Made by a program: the position numbers and the translations under genes | Assembly (NCBI RefSeq): GCF_000313915.1 | Contig: NZ_AMYT01000011.1 | Coordinates: 124,001-188,000, forward strand | Reading direction: 5' to 3' | DNA: 64,000 nt | DNA from: Catellicoccus marimammalium M35/04/3 | Lineage (GTDB): Bacteria; Bacillota; Bacilli; Lactobacillales; Catellicoccaceae | Shown here: positions 2,706-54,053 of the stretch, piece by piece | How the letters are laid out: the number at the start of each line of letters is the position of its first letter | Numbering within the stretch: the first letter of the stretch is position 1 | The notes under the pieces: generated by a model | Told to the model about the DNA's origin: nothing | Database searches by the model: none | What the model saw: only the letters and a program-made list of their open reading frames with translations

Positions 2706-2763
2706 AATGTATGATTGTGGTGATCATACCTCATGGACGAAAGAGAAGAAAGGGATTATAGCG

Positions 2764-5142
2764 ATGGCAAACTTTTTGAAAAAAGTAATCGAAAACGATA
2801 AAAAAGAATTAAAACGCCTAGACCGAATGGCTTGTAAAGTTGAAGCTTTAGCTGATGAAATGGCAGCTTTAAGTGATGAACAATTACAAGCAAAAACAAC
2901 AGAATTTAAAGAACGTCTTCAAAAAGGAGAAACGTTAGATGATCTGTTATATGAAGCTTTCGCTGTCGTACGTGAAGCAGCGAAACGTGTGCTAGGTTTA
3001 TTCCCTTATCATGTACAAATTATGGGTGGAATTGTATTACATGATGGTAATATTCCAGAAATGAAAACAGGGGAAGGAAAAACATTAACGGCGACAATGC
3101 CTGTTTATTTAAATGCGCTTTCTGGAAAAGGGGTACACGTGGTTACTGTTAATGAATATTTAACACAACGTGACGCAGAAGCGATGAGTGAATTATATGA
3201 ATATTTAGGCTTAACGATTGGTATTAATACGAATGCTAAAACGCCAGCTGAAAAGCGCGAAGCTTACTTATGCGATATCACTTATAGTACAAATAACGAA
3301 TTAGGATTTGACTACTTACGTGATAACATGGTGACTTATAAAGAGGATATGGTACAACGTCCTTTAAACTATGCGATTGTCGACGAAGTAGACTCTATTT
3401 TAATCGATGAAGCTCGTACGCCATTAATTATTTCTGGACCAGCAGAAAAATCAACTGCTTTATATATTCGTGCGGATAAATTTGTTAAAAAATTAAAAGA
3501 AGAAATCGATTATACCATTGATATTCAAAGCAAAACCATTGGATTAACCGATGAAGGAATTAACAAAGCAGAAGAAGTTTTCCATTTAGAAAACTTATAT
3601 GATGTAGAAAATACAGCATTAACTCACCATTTAGATGAAGCTTTACGTGCAAACTACATTATGATTCGTGATATTGATTATGTAGTTCAAGATGGAAAAG
3701 TAATGATCGTTGACCAATTTACAGGTCGTATTATGGATGGTCGCCGTTATTCTGATGGATTACACCAAGCGATTGAAGCTAAAGAAGGTGTTAAAATTGA
3801 AGATGAAACAAAAACAATGGCAAATATTACCTTCCAAAACTATTTCCGTATGTATAATAAATTAGCGGGAATGACAGGGACAGCGAAAACAGAAGAAGAT
3901 GAATTCCGTGAAATTTATAATATGCATGTTATTCAAATCCCAACAAATAAACCAATTGCGCGTGAAGACCGAGATGATTTATTATATCCAACATTGAAAG
4001 CTAAATTCCATGCAGTAGTAGAAGATATTAAAGAACGCCATGCCAAAGGACAACCTGTATTAGTAGGTACAGTAGCGGTAGAAACTTCAGAATTATTATC
4101 TAATATGTTGACAAAAGCACGTATTCCTCATGAAGTGTTGAATGCGAAAAACCACTTTAAAGAAGCAGAAATTATTATGAATGCAGGTCAACCTGGAGCA
4201 GTAACTATCGCTACTAACATGGCTGGTCGTGGTACCGATATTAAATTAGGGCCTGGAGTAGAAGAATTAGGTGGTTTAGCAGTTATCGGAACAGAACGTC
4301 ATGAAAGTCGTCGTATCGATAACCAATTACGTGGACGTAGCGGACGCCAAGGAGACGTTGGTGTTTCTCAATTCTATTTATCTTTAGAAGATGATTTAAT
4401 GCGTCGTTTTGGTTCTGATCGTGTTCGTGCGATGTTAGAGCATTTACGTGGTGATGATGATGAAGAAATCGTTATCCAAAATAAAATGATTACAAAACAA
4501 GTAGAAGCAGCACAAAAACGTGTAGAAGGAAACAACTATGATTCACGTAAACAAGTGTTGCAATATGATGATGTAATGCGTGAACAACGTGAAACGATTT
4601 ATCGTGAACGTCTACAAGTTATTAATGAAGAACATTCACTAAAAGACGTTATTTTAGGTATGATGCATCGTACGATTGAACGCTCTATTAAATCTTTTAC
4701 TCGTGGAGATAAAAAAGAGTGGAACTACGAACAAATTGCTAACTTTGCGAATACAACGATTTATTCTGAAGCAGAAGAAAAAACAGCAGCTGACTTTGAA
4801 GGAATGACACCAGATCAAATGAAACAAATGTTATTCCAAAAAGTAGAAGAAGAATATGCAAACAAAGAAGCACAATTAGATGCTGATGCATTATTAGAAT
4901 TTGAAAAAGTTGTTATTTTACGTGTAGTAGATGAAGATTGGACAGACCACATCGATGAGATGGATCAGTTACGTCAATCTATTGGTTTACGTGCTTATGG
5001 ACAAAATAACCCATTAGTAGAGTATCAACAAGAAGGATATCAAATGTACAATCAAATGATTGCAGATATCGAATTTGAAGTTACTCGTTTATTCTTAAAA
5101 GCACGTATTCATAATGATATGACACGTAGTGAACAATTATAG
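2764..5142 (+). CDS. secA: Preprotein translocase ATPase SecA
   Basis: Motor ATPase that drives unfolded preproteins through SecYEG at the cytoplasmic membrane. The Walker A segment [11 protein letters not shown] lies near residue 102 and the DEAD-type Walker B region [16 protein letters not shown] near 207; the helicase motif [15 protein letters not shown] and RGRSGRQGD follow near 490-540, then the scaffold and wing domains. I chose ATG 2764 (MANFLKKV) because a GAAAGGG site precedes it and it matches the family start; an in-frame ATG at 2707 would add 19 unrelated residues. The protein has 792 residues and ends without the Cys-rich zinc tail (CxCxSGxxxxxCH) of many SecA proteins. prfB follows after a hairpin, the usual Gram-positive order. 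Confidence 0.97.
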
Positions 5143-5151
5143 AAAAAAGGA

Positions 5152-5176
5152 GAGGCAAGAGTTCTTGCCTCTTTTC
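5152..5176 (+). terminator. Hairpin between secA and prfB
   Basis: GAGGCAAG / CTTGCCTC stem (5152-5159, 5164-5171) followed by only four T. It may be an attenuating terminator or a processing hairpin between secA and prfB. Confidence 0.6.
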
Positions 5177-5195
5177 CTAAATATGGAGGAAAATT

Positions 5196-6297
5196 ATGGA
5201 ACTTAGTGAAGTGAAAAGTCGTTTAGAAAAGACAGAAAATAAATTAAAAGATTTTAGGGGGTCTCTTTGACTTTGATGGTTTAGAAGAGACAATCTCTGT
5301 AAAAGAATCAGAGATGAGCGCTCCTGACTTTTGGGATGATGCAGAAAGAGCGCGTAAAATCATTGCTGAAGTCAATCTAGCCAAAAAACAATTAGAAACC
5401 TTCCAATCATTAGAACAACAACAAGAAGAGTTGGAAATGATGGTGGAATTAGCAGAAACCGATGCCGATTTTCAACAAGAGTTAGAAGAACAATTGCCAC
5501 AGTTTGAAGAACAATTGGGTGCTTATGAATTAGAACAATTATTAGATGATCCTTATGATCATAATAATGCGTTATTAGAAATTCATCCTGGAGCTGGAGG
5601 AACAGAGTCTCAAGATTGGGGAAGTATGTTACTTCGTATGTACCAACGTTGGGCAGAAAAACATCATTTCAAAGTTGAAACAATGGATTACCAACCAGGA
5701 GATGAAGCAGGAATTAAAAGTGTTACTTTACTGATCAAAGGAGAAAATGCCTATGGATATCTCAAAAGTGAGCATGGGGTCCATCGTTTAGTTCGTATTT
5801 CTCCTTTTGATGCAGCTAATCGTCGTCATACTTCTTTTGCCTCTGTAGAAGTGATGCCAGAAATTAATGAAGATATCGATATTGAAATTAAAGATGAAGA
5901 CTTGAAAATCGATACTTACCGTGCTAGTGGAGCTGGAGGGCAACATATTAATAAAACAGAATCTGCAGTTCGTATTACGCACTTACCTACAGGGATTGTT
6001 GTTGCTTCACAAGCTCAACGTTCGCAATTGAAAAATAGGGAAATTGCGATGAATATGTTAAAGGCGAAATTATACCAAAAAGAAATGGAGAAAAAAGCAG
6101 AAGAACAAGCAGCATTACGTGGCGAACAAATGGAAAATGGTTGGGGCTCACAAATTCGTTCTTATGTTTTCCATCCATATACAATGGTTAAAGATCATCG
6201 TACACAGCACGAAACTGGAAATGGCCAAGCTGTAATGGATGGTGATTTAGATGCCTTTATGAATGAGTATCTACGTTCACAAATGAACCAAGGATAG
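5196..6297 (+). CDS. prfB: Peptide chain release factor 2 (programmed +1 frameshift)
   Basis: RF2 recognises UGA and UAA stop codons and hydrolyses peptidyl-tRNA. Translation begins at ATG 5196 behind GGAGGA and runs 24 codons to an in-frame TGA at 5268-5270; a +1 shift on CTT continues as GAC-TTT-GAT and gives one protein of 366 residues. The second frame alone from ATG 5314 would lack the N-terminal helix. The stop-codon-recognising tripeptide SPF is seen in VRISPFDAA and the catalytic GGQ loop in [10 protein letters not shown]. ftsE follows after ten bases with its own ribosome site, a common arrangement. RF2 autoregulates through the frameshift: low RF2 lets the ribosome pause at TGA and slip (established knowledge). 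Confidence 0.97.
5256..5270 (+). promoter_or_regulatory. prfB: RF2 programmed +1 frameshift site
   Basis: AGG GGG TCT CTT TGA C: an internal Shine-Dalgarno-like AGGGGG, then the slippery CTT and the UGA stop, with C as the next base. This is the canonical prfB recoding signal. Confidence 0.96.
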
Positions 6298-6307
6298 GAG
6301 GAAAAAT

Positions 6308-6997
6308 ATGCCAATTATTCAAATGCGCGATGTTAGTAAAAAATATAAAAATGGAACCACTGCGTTACGTAATGTTTCAGTTTCTGTAGAACCTGGAGAG
6401 TTCATCTATGTAGTTGGTCCAAGTGGGTCTGGGAAATCAACTTTTTTAAAACTAATTTATCGTGAAGAAAAAGCAAACCGTGGAGAAATCGTTGTCGCTG
6501 GGGAAAACTTGATGAAATTAAAAAATAAAAAAGTTCCTTTCTTGCGCCGTAAAATGGGGACAATTTTCCAAGATTACAAACTATTACCAAATAAAACTGC
6601 ATACGAGAACATTGCTTATGCGATGCAAGTCATTGGGAAAAAGCCCTATGAAATTAAAAAGCGTGTGCAAGAAGTATTAGACTTGGTTGGTTTACGCCAT
6701 AAAGCAAAAATGTTTCCAAATCAATTATCTGGTGGAGAACAACAACGAATTGCTATTGCAAGAGCTATTGTAAATACTCCTAAAATTTTGATTGCCGATG
6801 AACCTACTGGAAACTTAGATCCAGAAAATACATGGGAAATCATGAAGATTTTGGAACGAATTAATCAACAAGGAACCACTGTTATTATGGGAACGCACAA
6901 TAGTAGCATTGTAAATACGATTCGTCACCGTGTATTAACGATTGAAAATGGACGTATTGTGCATGATGAGATGGAAGGAGTGTACACTTATGATTAG
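6308..6997 (+). CDS. ftsE: Cell division ABC ATPase FtsE
   Basis: ATPase half of the FtsEX complex, which in Gram-positive bacteria activates extracellular peptidoglycan hydrolases at the division site. Walker A GPSGSGKST is at residues 37-45, the Q-loop at IFQDYKLL, the ABC signature LSGGEQQRIAIARA near 137 and Walker B ILIADEPTGNLD near 158. The 229 residues match family length. It starts at ATG 6308 behind AGGAGG, ten bases after prfB, and its last eight bases overlap ftsX, which points to coupled translation. Confidence 0.95.
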   Translation: MPIIQMRDVSKKYKNGTTALRNVSVSVEPGEFIYVVGPSGSGKSTFLKLIYREEKANRGEIVVAGENLMKLKNKKVPFLRRKMGTIFQDYKLLPNKTAYENIAYAMQVIGKKPYEIKKRVQEVLDLVGLRHKAKMFPNQLSGGEQQRIAIARAIVNTPKILIADEPTGNLDPENTWEIMKILERINQQGTTVIMGTHNSSIVNTIRHRVLTIENGRIVHDEMEGVYTYD

Positions 6998-14762: not shown

Positions 14763-15521
14763 ATGTCAACAATTTTAGAAGCGAAAGATTTGCGTTTATA
14801 CTATGGGCAAAAAGAAGCGCTAAAAGGAATTTCTATGGAAATTGAAGAAAAAGGGATTACTTCTCTAATTGGACCTTCTGGATGTGGGAAATCTACGTTT
14901 TTACGTTGCTTAAACCGCATGAATGATTTGATTCCGATTGCTCGTGTTACAGGAAGCGTTTTGTATCGTGATCAAGATATTTATAGTCCTAATCAGGATG
15001 TTGTTGAATTGAGAAAAGAAATTGGAATGGTATTCCAACAACCAAACCCGTTTCCATTTTCTATTTATGACAATGTGACATTTGGTTTAAAATTAGGGGA
15101 TCAAAAAAAATCAAAAGAAGAAATGGATGAAATTGTAGAGCGTTCTTTACGTCAAGCAGCTGTATGGGATGATGTGAAAGATAAATTACATGATAGTGCA
15201 TTAGCTTTATCTGGAGGTCAACAACAGCGCGTTTGTATTGCCCGTGTATTAGCAGTACAACCAGATATTATCTTGTTAGATGAACCTACAAGTGCTTTAG
15301 ATCCAATTAGTAGTGGAAAAATTGAAAATATGTTATATGATTTGAAAGATGATTATACGATGATTATTGTTACACATAATATGCAACAAGCATCACGTAT
15401 TTCAGATCGCACTGCATTCTTCTTAAATGGGGATTTAATTGAATATGATCGTACAAAAGACATTTTCTTAAATCCAAAAAAACAAGAAACCGAAGATTAT
15501 ATCAGTGGACGATTTGGTTAA
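14763..15521 (+). CDS. pstB: Phosphate ABC transporter ATPase PstB (second copy)
   Basis: A second PstB paralogue, 252 residues, starting nine bases after the first with the same AGGAGGAAC ribosome site. Walker [10 protein letters not shown] is near residue 39, Q-loop [11 protein letters not shown], signature [14 protein letters not shown] and Walker [14 protein letters not shown]. It lacks the N-terminal extension of the first copy. PstB works as a dimer under PstCA; homodimers or a mixed dimer are both possible and cannot be settled from sequence. Confidence 0.94.
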
Positions 15522-15542
15522 AATTAGATAGGGGAGAAGATT

Positions 15543-16220
15543 ATGCTACGTACACAATTTGAACAAGACTTACAAAAATTACACTCCCAATTTTATGAAA
15601 TGGGAACAATGGTAAGCGATGCCATTTATAAATCTGTGCAAGCTTTTGTTAATCATGACAAGGTGTTAGCAAAAGAAGTAATTGAAAACGACCATAATAT
15701 TAATGAAATGGAAATTAAGTTAGAGAAGAAAAGCTTTGAAATGATCGCATTACAGCAACCAGTAACAACAGATTTACGTATGATTGTTACTGTCTTAAAA
15801 GCAAGTTCTGACTTAGAACGCTTAGGAGACCAAGCAGTAGCTATTGCTAAAGCAACTATTCGCGTAAAAGGGAATAAACGAATTCCAGAAATCGAAGCTC
15901 GTTTATCAGAAATGAGTAAAGAAGTTATCGGTATGGTGAATGAAGTCTTAACTGCTTATGTTAAAAATAATGAAGAAAAAGCAGAAGAAATTGCCAAACG
16001 TGATGAAATTATCAATCAATATTATGATACGATTACACATGATACGATTGCAGAAATGAAAAAAAATCCTGAAACCATTGTTGGAGGAACAGATTACTTA
16101 CAAGTTGTCGGTTTCTTAGAGCGCATTGGGGATTATGTAACAAATATCTGTGAATGGATTGTTTACTTAAAAACAGGGCGTATTGCTGAATTAACAGATA
16201 ATACAGATAATAATAATTAG
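15543..16220 (+). CDS. phoU: Phosphate-specific transport regulator PhoU
   Basis: Peripheral all-helical protein of two repeated PhoU domains that links the Pst transporter state to the phosphate two-component system and protects cells from excess uptake (family knowledge). Each half contains the metal-cluster motif: LRMIVTVLKASSDLERLGDQA near residue 78 and a second EIGD-type LERIGDYVTNICEW near 196. The length is 225 residues. It closes the pst operon, behind GGGGAGA. No phoPR genes are in the window. Confidence 0.94.
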   Translation: MLRTQFEQDLQKLHSQFYEMGTMVSDAIYKSVQAFVNHDKVLAKEVIENDHNINEMEIKLEKKSFEMIALQQPVTTDLRMIVTVLKASSDLERLGDQAVAIAKATIRVKGNKRIPEIEARLSEMSKEVIGMVNEVLTAYVKNNEEKAEEIAKRDEIINQYYDTITHDTIAEMKKNPETIVGGTDYLQVVGFLERIGDYVTNICEWIVYLKTGRIAELTDNTDNNN

Positions 16221-16232
16221 TAGAATTTATTT

Positions 16233-16262
16233 AGGAATGGAGTTTACTTCATTCCTTTTTTT
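16233..16262 (+). terminator. Terminator of the pst operon
   Basis: AGGAATG...CATTCCT stem followed by seven T. Confidence 0.85.
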
Positions 16263-16329
16263 ATGCATATTTTCTAAGAAAAATGAAGTCCTATGTTACA
16301 ATGTAAGCAAATGAAAAAGAGGGATGGAT

Positions 16330-17268
16330 ATGATTCAATTACAACATATTAAGAAAAGTTATGAACATCATGTTGTCATCCAAGATTTGTCCTTAGAAAT
16401 AAAAAATGGAGAATTGTTGGTGATTGTAGGGCAGAGTGGCAGTGGAAAGACAACTTTATTAAATATGATGAGTGGTATCATTACGCCAGAAAGTGGAGAA
16501 ATATTTTATAATCAACAAAAATTAACTATGGAAGATGCAGAACAATTACGATTGAAAAGTGGCTATGTTTTACAATCTTCTTCTCTTTTTCCTCATTTAA
16601 CGGTGTTAGAAAACTTATTTATTCAACCAAGAGCTCGTCAAGAAAAATGGACGAAAGAAGAACAAATGGAGAAAGGAAAAGAATTGTGTCAACAAGTGCA
16701 ATTAGATCCTTCTTGTTTAACACAATATCCAAAGGAACTATCAGGAGGACAGCAGCAACGAGTATCTATTGCTCGTGCATTAGCCAATCAGCCACAATTT
16801 ATTTTATTAGATGAGCCTTTTAGCGCCTTAGATCCTTTTATTCGTAAACAATTACAAGATTTATTACTAGAATTACATAAAACACATTTAGATATTACTT
16901 TTGTTATGGTGACTCATGATATGGAAGAAGCACTGAAGTTAGGCGATCGAATTGCAGTATTACATGAAGGAAAGCTAGAACAAGTAGGTTCTCCAAAAGA
17001 AATCATGGATCAACCAAAGACCGCTTTTGTAGAAGAATTATTTGCTGGTAAGAACTTAGATGCATTTTGGTTTCGAACTTTCCTTACTACTATATCTAAG
17101 GTACCTGTAAAAAATGAAATACCTGTGATTCAAAATTTCTCTCAATTATTAGAATTAACTAAAGTTAGAAAAGATGATCCCATTTTGTTTCAATTTAATC
17201 ATTGTGGATATCAAACTACTTTTTCTGCTATTTTACAGTTTATCAGTAAGGAGTTAAGACAATGGTAA
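16330..17268 (+). CDS. ABC ATPase of an OpuC/EgtUV-like importer
   Basis: ATPase that energises the downstream permease-binding protein fusion. Walker A GQSGSGKTT is near residue 36, the signature [14 protein letters not shown] near 136 and Walker B FILLDEPFSALDP near 157. About 80 C-terminal residues follow the ATPase core; no clear CBS pair is visible. I chose ATG 16330 because GAGGG ends six bases before it, whereas ATG 16324 touches the ribosome site. The stop overlaps the permease start by seven bases. Osmolyte/betaine importers of the OpuC/Gbu type and the ergothioneine importer EgtUV share this architecture; the substrate is undetermined. Confidence 0.85.
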   Translation: MIQLQHIKKSYEHHVVIQDLSLEIKNGELLVIVGQSGSGKTTLLNMMSGIITPESGEIFYNQQKLTMEDAEQLRLKSGYVLQSSSLFPHLTVLENLFIQPRARQEKWTKEEQMEKGKELCQQVQLDPSCLTQYPKELSGGQQQRVSIARALANQPQFILLDEPFSALDPFIRKQLQDLLLELHKTHLDITFVMVTHDMEEALKLGDRIAVLHEGKLEQVGSPKEIMDQPKTAFVEELFAGKNLDAFWFRTFLTTISKVPVKNEIPVIQNFSQLLELTKVRKDDPILFQFNHCGYQTTFSAILQFISKELRQW

Positions 17269-52456: not shown

Positions 52457-52477
52457 AAATAGAGATGAGAATAAGGA

Positions 52478-52505
52478 AGAGATGAGCGTTAGCTCATCTC
52501 TTTTT
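52478..52505 (+). terminator. Terminator after the GH25-like gene
   Basis: AGAGATGAGC-GTTA-GCTCATCTCT followed by TTTT. Confidence 0.9.
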
Positions 52506-52546
52506 GTGTTATAATAGAGAAGACAGAAAAGAAAGGAGGGAATAAA

Positions 52547-52771
52547 ATGACTTTTGAAGAAATGTTACCTGGATTAAAAGCAGGCAAAAAAATGGTTCGT
52601 ACAAATTGGGAAGGTACAGAATTATGGGTGGAGTTAGTTCCAGCAACTACTTATCACGGGGAAACAATGAATCCCTATTTTGTAATCAAAACAGAAGACG
52701 AAGCCTTTAGCGTTTGGGAACCCACAAGTTGTGATGTATTAGCTACAGATTGGGCGGAAGTTCATGACTAA
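52547..52771 (+). CDS. DUF2829 (Tad2-like) domain protein
   Basis: 74 residues, a single DUF2829 domain: FEEMLPGLKAGKKMVRTNWE at the start and SVWEPTSCDVLATDW at the end, matching the family's G-W/N-W...D-M/V-L-A-x-D-W pattern. DUF2829 is common in phages; the phage protein Tad2 of this family sequesters the Thoeris signal nucleotide. Here it sits in ordinary chromosome, translationally coupled (8-base overlap) to an SDR gene, behind AAAGGAGGG and an extended -10 (TGTTATAAT). A chromosomal role in nucleotide binding is possible but unproven. Confidence 0.75.
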   Translation: MTFEEMLPGLKAGKKMVRTNWEGTELWVELVPATTYHGETMNPYFVIKTEDEAFSVWEPTSCDVLATDWAEVHD

Positions 52772-53492
52772 TCCATCATTTTATAATCAATCAGTAGTGA
52801 TCACGGGTTGTTCTTCTGGAATTGGAAAAGCGCAAGCAGAAGCTTTTTTAGATAAAGGAGCGATGGTTTATGGGCTAGATTGTCAACCTTGTCCGTTAGA
52901 GCATCCAAATTTCTTTTTTTCTCTTTGTGATATTACAAAAGAAAAAGAAGTAGAAAAAGTATTACAAAAGATAGAACGAGTAGATATCTTATGTAATACA
53001 GCTGGAATTTTAGATGATTTTGCTCCTAGTCTAGATACTTCTGTTGAACTTTTTGATCGCATCTTTGCGGTAAATGTGCGAGGAACTTTTCTTTTGTGTA
53101 ATGCCTGTTTGCCTAAAATGCTAGCACAAGGGAAAGGGTGCATTATTAATATGGCCTCGATTGCTAGTTTAATTCCTGGCGGTGGTGGTGCTGCTTATAC
53201 CGCCTCAAAGCATGCCATTTATGGATATACTAAGCAATTAACCTATGATTATGCAAGAAAGGGAATTCGAGCTAATGCGATTGCTCCTGGAGCAATTCGT
53301 ACTCCAATGAATCAAAAAGATTTTTTAAATGGTGGAGAGATTGCTAAAGAAATCGCTAAAGAGACCCCTTGTGGTCGTTACGCAGAACCAGAAGAAATTG
53401 CTCAAGTGACTTTGTTTTTAGCGAGTGATGATGCTCGTTATATTTATGGAGATATTATTCCTGTAGATGGCGGATGGATGAACCGCTCTTAA
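52764..53492 (+). CDS. Short-chain dehydrogenase/reductase
   Basis: NAD(P)-dependent oxidoreductase of the classical SDR type, 242 residues. Cofactor motif TGCSSGIG at residues 14-21, NTAG near 79, catalytic Ser in NMASIAS and Tyr-x3-Lys in YTASKH, then the C-terminal PGAIRTPMN and VDGGW. The substrate is not evident; the match to FabG is general. Codon use is like its neighbours. The start overlaps the DUF2829 gene, so the two are cotranslated. Confidence 0.88.
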   Translation: MTNPSFYNQSVVITGCSSGIGKAQAEAFLDKGAMVYGLDCQPCPLEHPNFFFSLCDITKEKEVEKVLQKIERVDILCNTAGILDDFAPSLDTSVELFDRIFAVNVRGTFLLCNACLPKMLAQGKGCIINMASIASLIPGGGGAAYTASKHAIYGYTKQLTYDYARKGIRANAIAPGAIRTPMNQKDFLNGGEIAKEIAKETPCGRYAEPEEIAQVTLFLASDDARYIYGDIIPVDGGWMNRS

Positions 53493-53497
53493 AAAAA

Positions 53498-53556
53498 CCC
53501 TATGACACTTATCATCCTTTGGTCATAGTAAGAAGTAAGCATTGCTTATAAAGGAG
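53498..53556 (+). ncRNA. preQ1-II riboswitch (COG4708 motif)
   Basis: P1 stem CTATGAC (53500-53506) with GTCATAG (53522-53528). Its loop contains CTTATCATCCTTT; the CCTTT part can pair with AAAGG of the ribosome binding site (53550-53556), forming the pseudoknot. A small hairpin TAAGC-ATT-GCTTA (53536-53548) lies between. This is the preQ1-II architecture and the gene is QueT (COG4708), its usual target. Ligand binding would hide the ribosome site and switch translation off. Confidence 0.88.
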
Positions 53557-53564
53557 AGGAAAAA

Positions 53565-54053
53565 ATGAAAATCAAAACAAAAGAATTAACAAAAATGGCA
53601 CTAATTGCCGGAATTTATGTCGTACTGTCTTTATTTACTGCACCTTTATGCTTTGGAGCGATTCAAATTCGTTTAGCAGAAATGTTAAACTTATTAGTTG
53701 CAGTGAATAAGCGTTATATTATTGCAGTAACTTTAGGTTGTATGATTACAAATTGCTTTTCTCCACTGGGAATTGTCGATGTAGTCATTGGTGGAGGATC
53801 AACTTTTGTTGCTCTTTTTATTGGTTATCATTTGTCTAAAAATAAACCTTCACTACTTACACGTATGTTAATTATTGGAGCATGTGTAACATTAGGTACT
53901 ATTGCAGTGGCAGCAGAACTATATTACATTTCTCATCTACCATTTTGGATGACTTATGGTACTGTAGCTGCAGGAGAAGTTTTATCTTTAGTATTAGGTG
54001 GAGTAATTTTATTACTTTTGAAAAAAACCAATCATTTAAAATTATTAGCGTAA
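53565..54053 (+). CDS. queT: Queuosine precursor (preQ1) transporter QueT
   Basis: S-component-like membrane protein of the ECF-type vitamin transporter class, 162 residues with about five to six transmembrane segments. QueT segments: ALIAGIYVVLSLFTAPLCFGAIQIRLAEMLNLL (near 14-45), NKRYIIAVTLGCMITNCFSPLGIVDVVIGG (near 50-80). It would import preQ1 with the shared ECF module. The ribosome site is inside the riboswitch pseudoknot. No queuosine biosynthesis genes are adjacent, so the cell may depend on scavenging. Confidence 0.92.
   Translation: MKIKTKELTKMALIAGIYVVLSLFTAPLCFGAIQIRLAEMLNLLVAVNKRYIIAVTLGCMITNCFSPLGIVDVVIGGGSTFVALFIGYHLSKNKPSLLTRMLIIGACVTLGTIAVAAELYYISHLPFWMTYGTVAAGEVLSLVLGGVILLLLKKTNHLKLLA

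Follow-up and report, generated by a model that had tools for sequence, protein, structure and literature searches.

The DUF2829 domain is found in the phage Tad2 proteins (SPO1, a Myroides odoratus prophage, HgmTad2/AcrIIA7 and SptTad2). Excerpts of PMC12043709 place the gcADPR pocket of Tad2 in loops b1-b2, b3-b4 and b4-a3 together with helix a3, and report a longer b2-b5 insertion for the binding of cyclic dinucleotides. For queuosine salvage, excerpts of PMC11130926 and PMC11570991 describe a route from queuine to preQ1 in Clostridioides difficile that uses QueL, a radical enzyme; they also describe transporters of the QueT group as varying between preQ1, queuine or queuosine uptake. PreQ1-II riboswitches are known ahead of queT (PMC11625349, excerpt), and two QueT genes, one of them activated by MafR, have been described in E. 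faecalis OG1RF (PMC6467988, excerpt). Here we analysed a window of 64,000 nucleotides from Catellicoccus marimammalium M35/04/3, which carries a gene of the same domain family and fold as phage Tad2. Unlike the phage genes, it is chromosomal and coupled to a gene for a short-chain dehydrogenase (SDR). With moderate confidence, we propose that this DUF2829-SDR pair works together with QueT in the salvage of 7-deazaguanine precursors for tRNA queuosine. If so, the arrangement would resemble the indirect queuine salvage by QueL, which likewise works beside a QueT-type transporter; but there a radical enzyme has been described, whereas here the enzyme is an SDR, its partner is Tad2-like and the substrate is only a candidate.

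The two open reading frames overlap by eight nucleotides (52764-52771), as the sequence-only reading had stated, and its description of a complete single-domain DUF2829 protein holds as well, with PF11195 spanning residues 1-72 and profile positions 1-73 of 73. The same reading had assumed a shared promoter; this is plausible by eye, with a putative extended -10 and a ribosome-binding site following a hairpin, but the promoter is missing from the list returned by the consensus promoter scan. The locus extends beyond the SDR gene through a preQ1-II-like element and then queT (PF06177, 126.3 bits against a cut-off of 33.7) to position 54053, and the gene after QueT encodes what we take to be an EngA/Der-like GTPase.

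Table 1. Features of the DUF2829-SDR-QueT locus, in window coordinates
Feature	Position	Strand	Basis
Hairpin 3' of the gene preceding the pair	52477-52502	reported on -	promoter/hairpin scan
Putative extended -10 TGTTATAAT of the DUF2829-SDR pair	52507-52515	+	by eye
Putative ribosome-binding site AAAGGAGG of the DUF2829-SDR pair	52532-52539	+	by eye
DUF2829/Tad2-like gene, 74 aa	52547-52771	+	PF11195 (83.3 bits) and Tad2 fold
NF005118-type SDR, 242 aa	52764-53492	+	profiles and catalytic residues
preQ1-II-like element without P1	53500-53556	+	conserved core in SDR-QueT gaps
P2 of the preQ1-II-like element	53500-53506/53522-53528	+	
anti-SD of the preQ1-II-like element	53516-53521	+	
P4 of the preQ1-II-like element	53535-53540/53544-53549	+	
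SD of the preQ1-II-like element	53550-53556	+	
QueT, S component of an ECF importer for queuosine precursors, clade B	53565-54053	+	PF06177 and tree

The DUF2829 protein scored 83.3 bits with PF11195, for which the cut-off is 25, and its AlphaFold2 model (pLDDT 93.5) gave a TM of 0.80 with 8v3e and a best VIA Z of 10.9 over 73 residues. All 21 PDB matches with E <0.001 were Tad2 or AcrIIA7/HgmTad2, and so the predicted fold agrees with the Tad2 likeness first noticed from the sequence. This fold is shared with proteins binding ADP-ribose-type nucleotides. In the model, the Tad2 pocket elements appear to include residues 20-24 and 57-65, with Glu25 opening the next strand. The segments of the pocket wall are conserved in DUF2829 proteins linked to the SDR, yet with Glu25 and Cys62, both of which occur in all 41 pair-linked proteins (one for every pair locus fetched); phage-type proteins have mostly Gly and mixed residues there (Glu25 in 0/18, Cys62 in 5/18). 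Arg18, Ala66 and Asp68 are invariant, and Trp21 and Trp69 nearly so, in both groups. Furthermore, the b2-b5 segment measures 10-14 residues in 41/41 pair-linked proteins, which thus miss the cyclic-dinucleotide insertion; it is short in 6 of the 18 phage-type proteins too, and 16-29 residues long in the remainder.

We searched 295 Lactobacillales genomes with the profiles PF11195 (DUF2829) and NF005118 (SDR), which matched in 133 and 134 genomes, respectively. Both families were present in 129, the SDR alone in five and DUF2829 alone in four, so that the pair is far from limited to this strain. A PF11195 match lay on the same strand within 230 nt upstream of 130 of the 135 SDR copies, a pairing that exceeds chance (Fisher p ~1e-71 for the association, kinship ignored). 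Only nine of 139 DUF2829 matches had no paired SDR, and some of these are fragments; in G038 (G and L numbers are our labels for genomes and loci) the match comes from one half of a split gene next to the SDR. No DUF2829-SDR fusion was found among the matches listed for the 295 genomes, and the window gene is the sole PF11195 match in its own 1.28-Mb genome. The five SDR genomes without DUF2829 indicate that DUF2829 is not always needed. A control genome of laboratory Lactococcus lactis also gave matches to both families. A phylum-wide sample of 299 genomes contained the SDR family (E <=1e-60) in two; the sample lists three Lactobacillales genomes, and both SDR genomes belong to that order, hence none of the other 296 Bacillota genomes has it. 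A profile search of contigs with the SDR alignment returned 80 loci, four of them from Lactobacillales. We see the DUF2829-SDR pair as a chromosomal module of long standing in Lactobacillales.

Does the window protein nevertheless act against phage defence? An old domesticated anti-defence gene had been offered as one option by the sequence-only reading, and a sponge, domesticated or active, that traps TIR- or CBASS-made nucleotides would fit the Tad2 fold, the conserved pocket segments and the relatives found in phage records. We regard this as very unlikely. All 144 phage records with a DUF2829 match are <60% identical to the window protein, the best two, at 53%, being 'Listeria phage' contigs. 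In a tree of 54 DUF2829 proteins, which rests on few alignment columns, 17 of the 18 phage-type rows fell on one side of a branch (88/98). The pair-linked rows formed a single group in 0/200 bootstrap trees and have the long-branched L180 placed among them; constraining them to one clade was not rejected (p-AU 0.48). The tree is unrooted and therefore gives no direction for any ancient transfer. Instead of being carried by a phage or prophage, as a sponge would be, the gene belongs to a chromosomal bicistron kept in 129 genomes, and there are no prophage genes among the named ORFs of the window, which bears out the backbone location claimed earlier. It is, moreover, tied to one metabolic enzyme and differs from all 18 phage-type proteins compared at Glu25. 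ThsB_TIR had no match in the own genome; among 60 relatives it matched in nine, including 6/25 of those bearing DUF2829, and only G033 among these six gave a strong match. With no ThsB match at home and one strong match among 25 DUF2829-bearing relatives, we dropped the link to Thoeris. The domestication proposal found no support, and an anti-phage role of the window DUF2829 is poorly supported.

Several records touch on how DUF2829 genes come to be counted as viral. The 'Listeria phage' record OR848486.1 (L028) carries an enterococcal-type DUF2829 and SDR at 4645-5624 and looks like bacterial chromosome, the enterococcal type being judged by likeness to L114; OR847015.1 matches the window DUF2829 equally well. 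In five streptococcal-type IMG/VR contigs (L149, L151, L155, L158 and L162, ~2740-4040), a tyrosine integrase ends ~96 nt before the DUF2829 start; the three tested match Pfam PF00589, and the intergenic stretch is well conserved in these contigs. Prophage-like elements thus seem to integrate on the 5' side of DUF2829, and this accounts in part for its being listed among viral genes. Two other proteins (L002, G025:C47, and L148, G279:C44) are 90-aa Tad2-like forms with a long insertion and no adjoining SDR that group with the phage forms and probably represent prophage Tad2.

The SDR matches PF13561 and PF00106 and passes the curated cut-off of NCBIfam NF005118/PRK06550 (335 bits vs 270), a family entitled '3-oxoacyl-ACP reductase'. 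Taken at its word, this database title would make the enzyme a fatty-acid 3-oxoacyl-ACP reductase with DUF2829 as its accessory, which we consider extremely improbable: the SDR stays below the FabG equivalog cut-offs shown (TIGR01830, 165 bits vs 297.75), and the fold nearest to its model (pLDDT 95.5) is that of human DHRS6, followed by BacC and other NAD dehydrogenases. The gene context here is QueT and DUF2829, and the title looks like annotation by superfamily. The catalytic residues Asn104, Ser132, Tyr145 and Lys149 are invariant in 14 sequences, as is Asp39, which suggests the use of NAD(H).

The pair is linked to queuosine through its neighbour. Of 44 SDR loci (37 numbered genera plus four named species), 31 have QueT directly next to the pair or to the SDR, 21 of them downstream and ten upstream; any other neighbour family recurs in four stretches at most. 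The QueT-first loci have the orders QueT-DUF2829-SDR (seven) and QueT-SDR (three), and in all ten the gap between the QueT stop and the next gene is <=18 nt, or the two genes overlap. Against this, QueT is non-adjacent in 13/44 loci, including all five streptococcal or lactococcal ones. A job unrelated to queuosine, for instance an NAD-linked oxidation in which some other small metabolite is the substrate and DUF2829 serves as carrier or regulatory subunit, would account for these 13 loci, for the promoter-like region that the pair has to itself in the window (by eye) and for the likeness of the SDR to dehydrogenases of many substrates; the proximity of QueT would then reflect co-inherited old genes. 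We take this seriously as a possibility and yet lean against it, as it sits poorly with two gene orders with QueT, with tight QueT-first operons after preQ1 riboswitches and with the QueT type found in streptococci, to which we return below.

Rfam preQ1-I matches at gathering level precede QueT in five of the ten QueT-first loci, namely L029 (Ligilactobacillus agilis), L031 (L. ubinensis) and L144 with the trio, and L146 and L147 with the SDR alone. By eye, L131 has a preQ1-II-like element before QueT, and L140, L142, L143 and L145 have preQ1-I-like stretches. In SDR-first loci, 17 of 21 SDR-QueT gaps, that of the window included, contain a preQ1-II-like core, compared with 0/4200 shuffles, and its P2 arms pair at 99% within a locus and at 82% when swapped between loci. 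The core is missing from the gaps of L114, L127, L136 (as far as seen, cut by the chosen QueT start) and L139 (a variant). With the preQ1-II riboswitch (RF01054) the element shares P2, the anti-SD/SD pairing and P4 before queT, but it has no P1 and often, by eye in the SDR-QueT gaps L109-L134, an extra stem in the P2 loop. RF01054 matched three related loci at 30.3-38.2 bits, below its gathering level of 47, and we therefore call the element 'preQ1-II-like'; no Rfam match at gathering level was obtained in the window, where RF01054 gave no hit. The folding of the window element alone is unremarkable (z -0.36; 62/200 shuffles fold equally well). In SDR-first genomes, window included, the riboswitch lies downstream of the pair and need not control it, and reading 17 upstream stretches by eye gave no convincing riboswitch ahead of DUF2829, which counts against the queuosine reading.

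The type of QueT gives a further connection. In a tree of 72 QueT proteins, none of the 31 clade A rows comes from a pair or SDR locus. The 28 rows of clade B comprise 23 from pair loci (counting G261, whose QueT is non-adjacent in the same stretch), that of G246, which is 4 kb from its pair, and four streptococcal ones with the pair elsewhere in the genome. When 19 rows were added in a fast tree, the QueT of a fifth pair-bearing streptococcus also fell in clade B, so that all five sampled streptococcal QueTs from pair-bearing genomes are of this type though unlinked (the streptococcal label of genera f4/g4 reflects near identity to Streptococcus oralis L032). Of the 32 QueT rows from pair or SDR loci, which include G261 and a 90-aa reading for L123, the remaining nine all come from one family and cluster apart, together with a single long-branched row (84/88); pair-locus QueTs are thus not monophyletic, a point against the queuosine reading. 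Among 31 copies from SDR-less genomes, one taken per pair-lacking genome, 22 were of clade A, eight of another type and one, from a streptococcus, of clade B. A preQ1-I match at E <=10 was present in 17 of 18 clade A loci scanned, five above gathering, and the two streptococcal QueT loci scanned carried preQ1-II at 96.8 and 82.4 bits. Outside streptococci, at least two QueT copies occur in 59/91 SDR genomes and in 21/161 without SDR; in streptococci with SDR the count is 0/43. Among lactic acid bacteria, streptococci and enterococci, many keep a second QueT transporter, with the two under different kinds of preQ1 riboswitch.

The rest of the pathway is compatible with salvage, although much of it is widespread. 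QueT occurs in at least 269/295 Lactobacillales genomes, hence its presence alone says little. TGT was found in 134/134 SDR genomes and 138/161 others (272/295 overall), and QueA in 39 of 42 genomes tried, including 34/34 with SDR; that QueT and TGT are common in pair-lacking genomes speaks against the queuosine reading. QueF was above cut-off in 32/262 genomes: 0/79 non-streptococcal SDR genomes, 10/36 streptococcal SDR genomes and 22/147 others, assuming that the 262 are G000-G261. G082 and G101, both with SDR, have QueF matches below cut-off. The own genome, with TGT and QueA and no QueF match, would fit a preQ1 salvager. As a separate observation, the TGTs of the five SDR-only genomes (L211-L215; L216 was left out of the comparison) have DEA in place of DEC and have lost zinc-ligand cysteines. 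A connection to the loss of DUF2829 was set aside, since L210 (G278), which has neither SDR nor DUF2829, shares the C-to-A change, which we ascribe to lineage.

That the pair acts on the cargo of QueT is the most economical reading of these data. The physiological role that the sequence-only reading had offered as its other option is supported, and the QueT context and the riboswitches narrow it to queuosine-precursor salvage as the best lead. In this salvage, QueT would import a queuosine precursor, the Tad2-like protein may hold its purine-like base in a Tad2-type pocket, a role we infer from the fold, and the SDR would oxidise or reduce the precursor with NAD(H) and so feed the preQ1-TGT-QueA route; substrate, reaction and any binding of DUF2829 to the substrate or the SDR are all put forward on this basis. 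PreQ1 riboswitches, a second QueT under the other riboswitch and an SDR together fit the conversion of a more elaborate precursor, for example queuine, to preQ1. A more specific version, which we think rather unlikely, would make the pair a radical-free queuine lyase. QueT would bring in queuine, DUF2829 would clamp the deazaguanine, its Glu25 and Cys62 serving as contacts or catalysts, and the SDR, using NAD+, would oxidise the cyclopentenediol at its allylic 4-hydroxyl; the preQ1 amine, now beta to a ketone, could then leave by elimination and yield preQ1 for TGT. S-adenosylhomocysteine hydrolase carries out a comparable elimination after oxidation. The Tad2 fold would, in that case, be a base-binding protein of tRNA metabolism besides a phage signal sponge.

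If the salvage role is correct, a domain used by phages as an immune-evasion sponge has a long-kept cellular form in the salvage of precursors for tRNA modification. This would provide a physiological relative for comparison and advise caution against labelling every DUF2829 gene as anti-defence, and it names two candidate queuosine-salvage genes for lactic acid bacteria, streptococci and enterococci. Among the matches listed for literature searches on DUF2829/Tad2-like proteins with queuosine, QueT with a dehydrogenase and queuine salvage, no title or abstract start dealt with the pair; an excerpt of PMC8125046 reports a DUF2829 protein in the Streptococcus suis proteome.

Three further loci were observed. 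In Latilactobacillus curvatus pL127-1 (NZ_CP016468.1, L282) the pair lies on a 220-kb plasmid at 5001-5968, annotated as a DUF2829 protein and a 3-oxoacyl-ACP reductase, with QueT not adjacent in the 10 kb viewed. The Klebsiella pneumoniae plasmid record pSP4663_3 (CP069369.1, L283) contains an enterococcal-type DUF2829, a broken SDR frame and a QueT reading at 5001-6772; with 49 kb and three annotated features, it is probably misassigned sequence. Finally, one genome (G213:C1) carries the QueT/SDR/DUF2829 trio in duplicate, with equal scores, at ~14793-16370 and 2922339-2923916.
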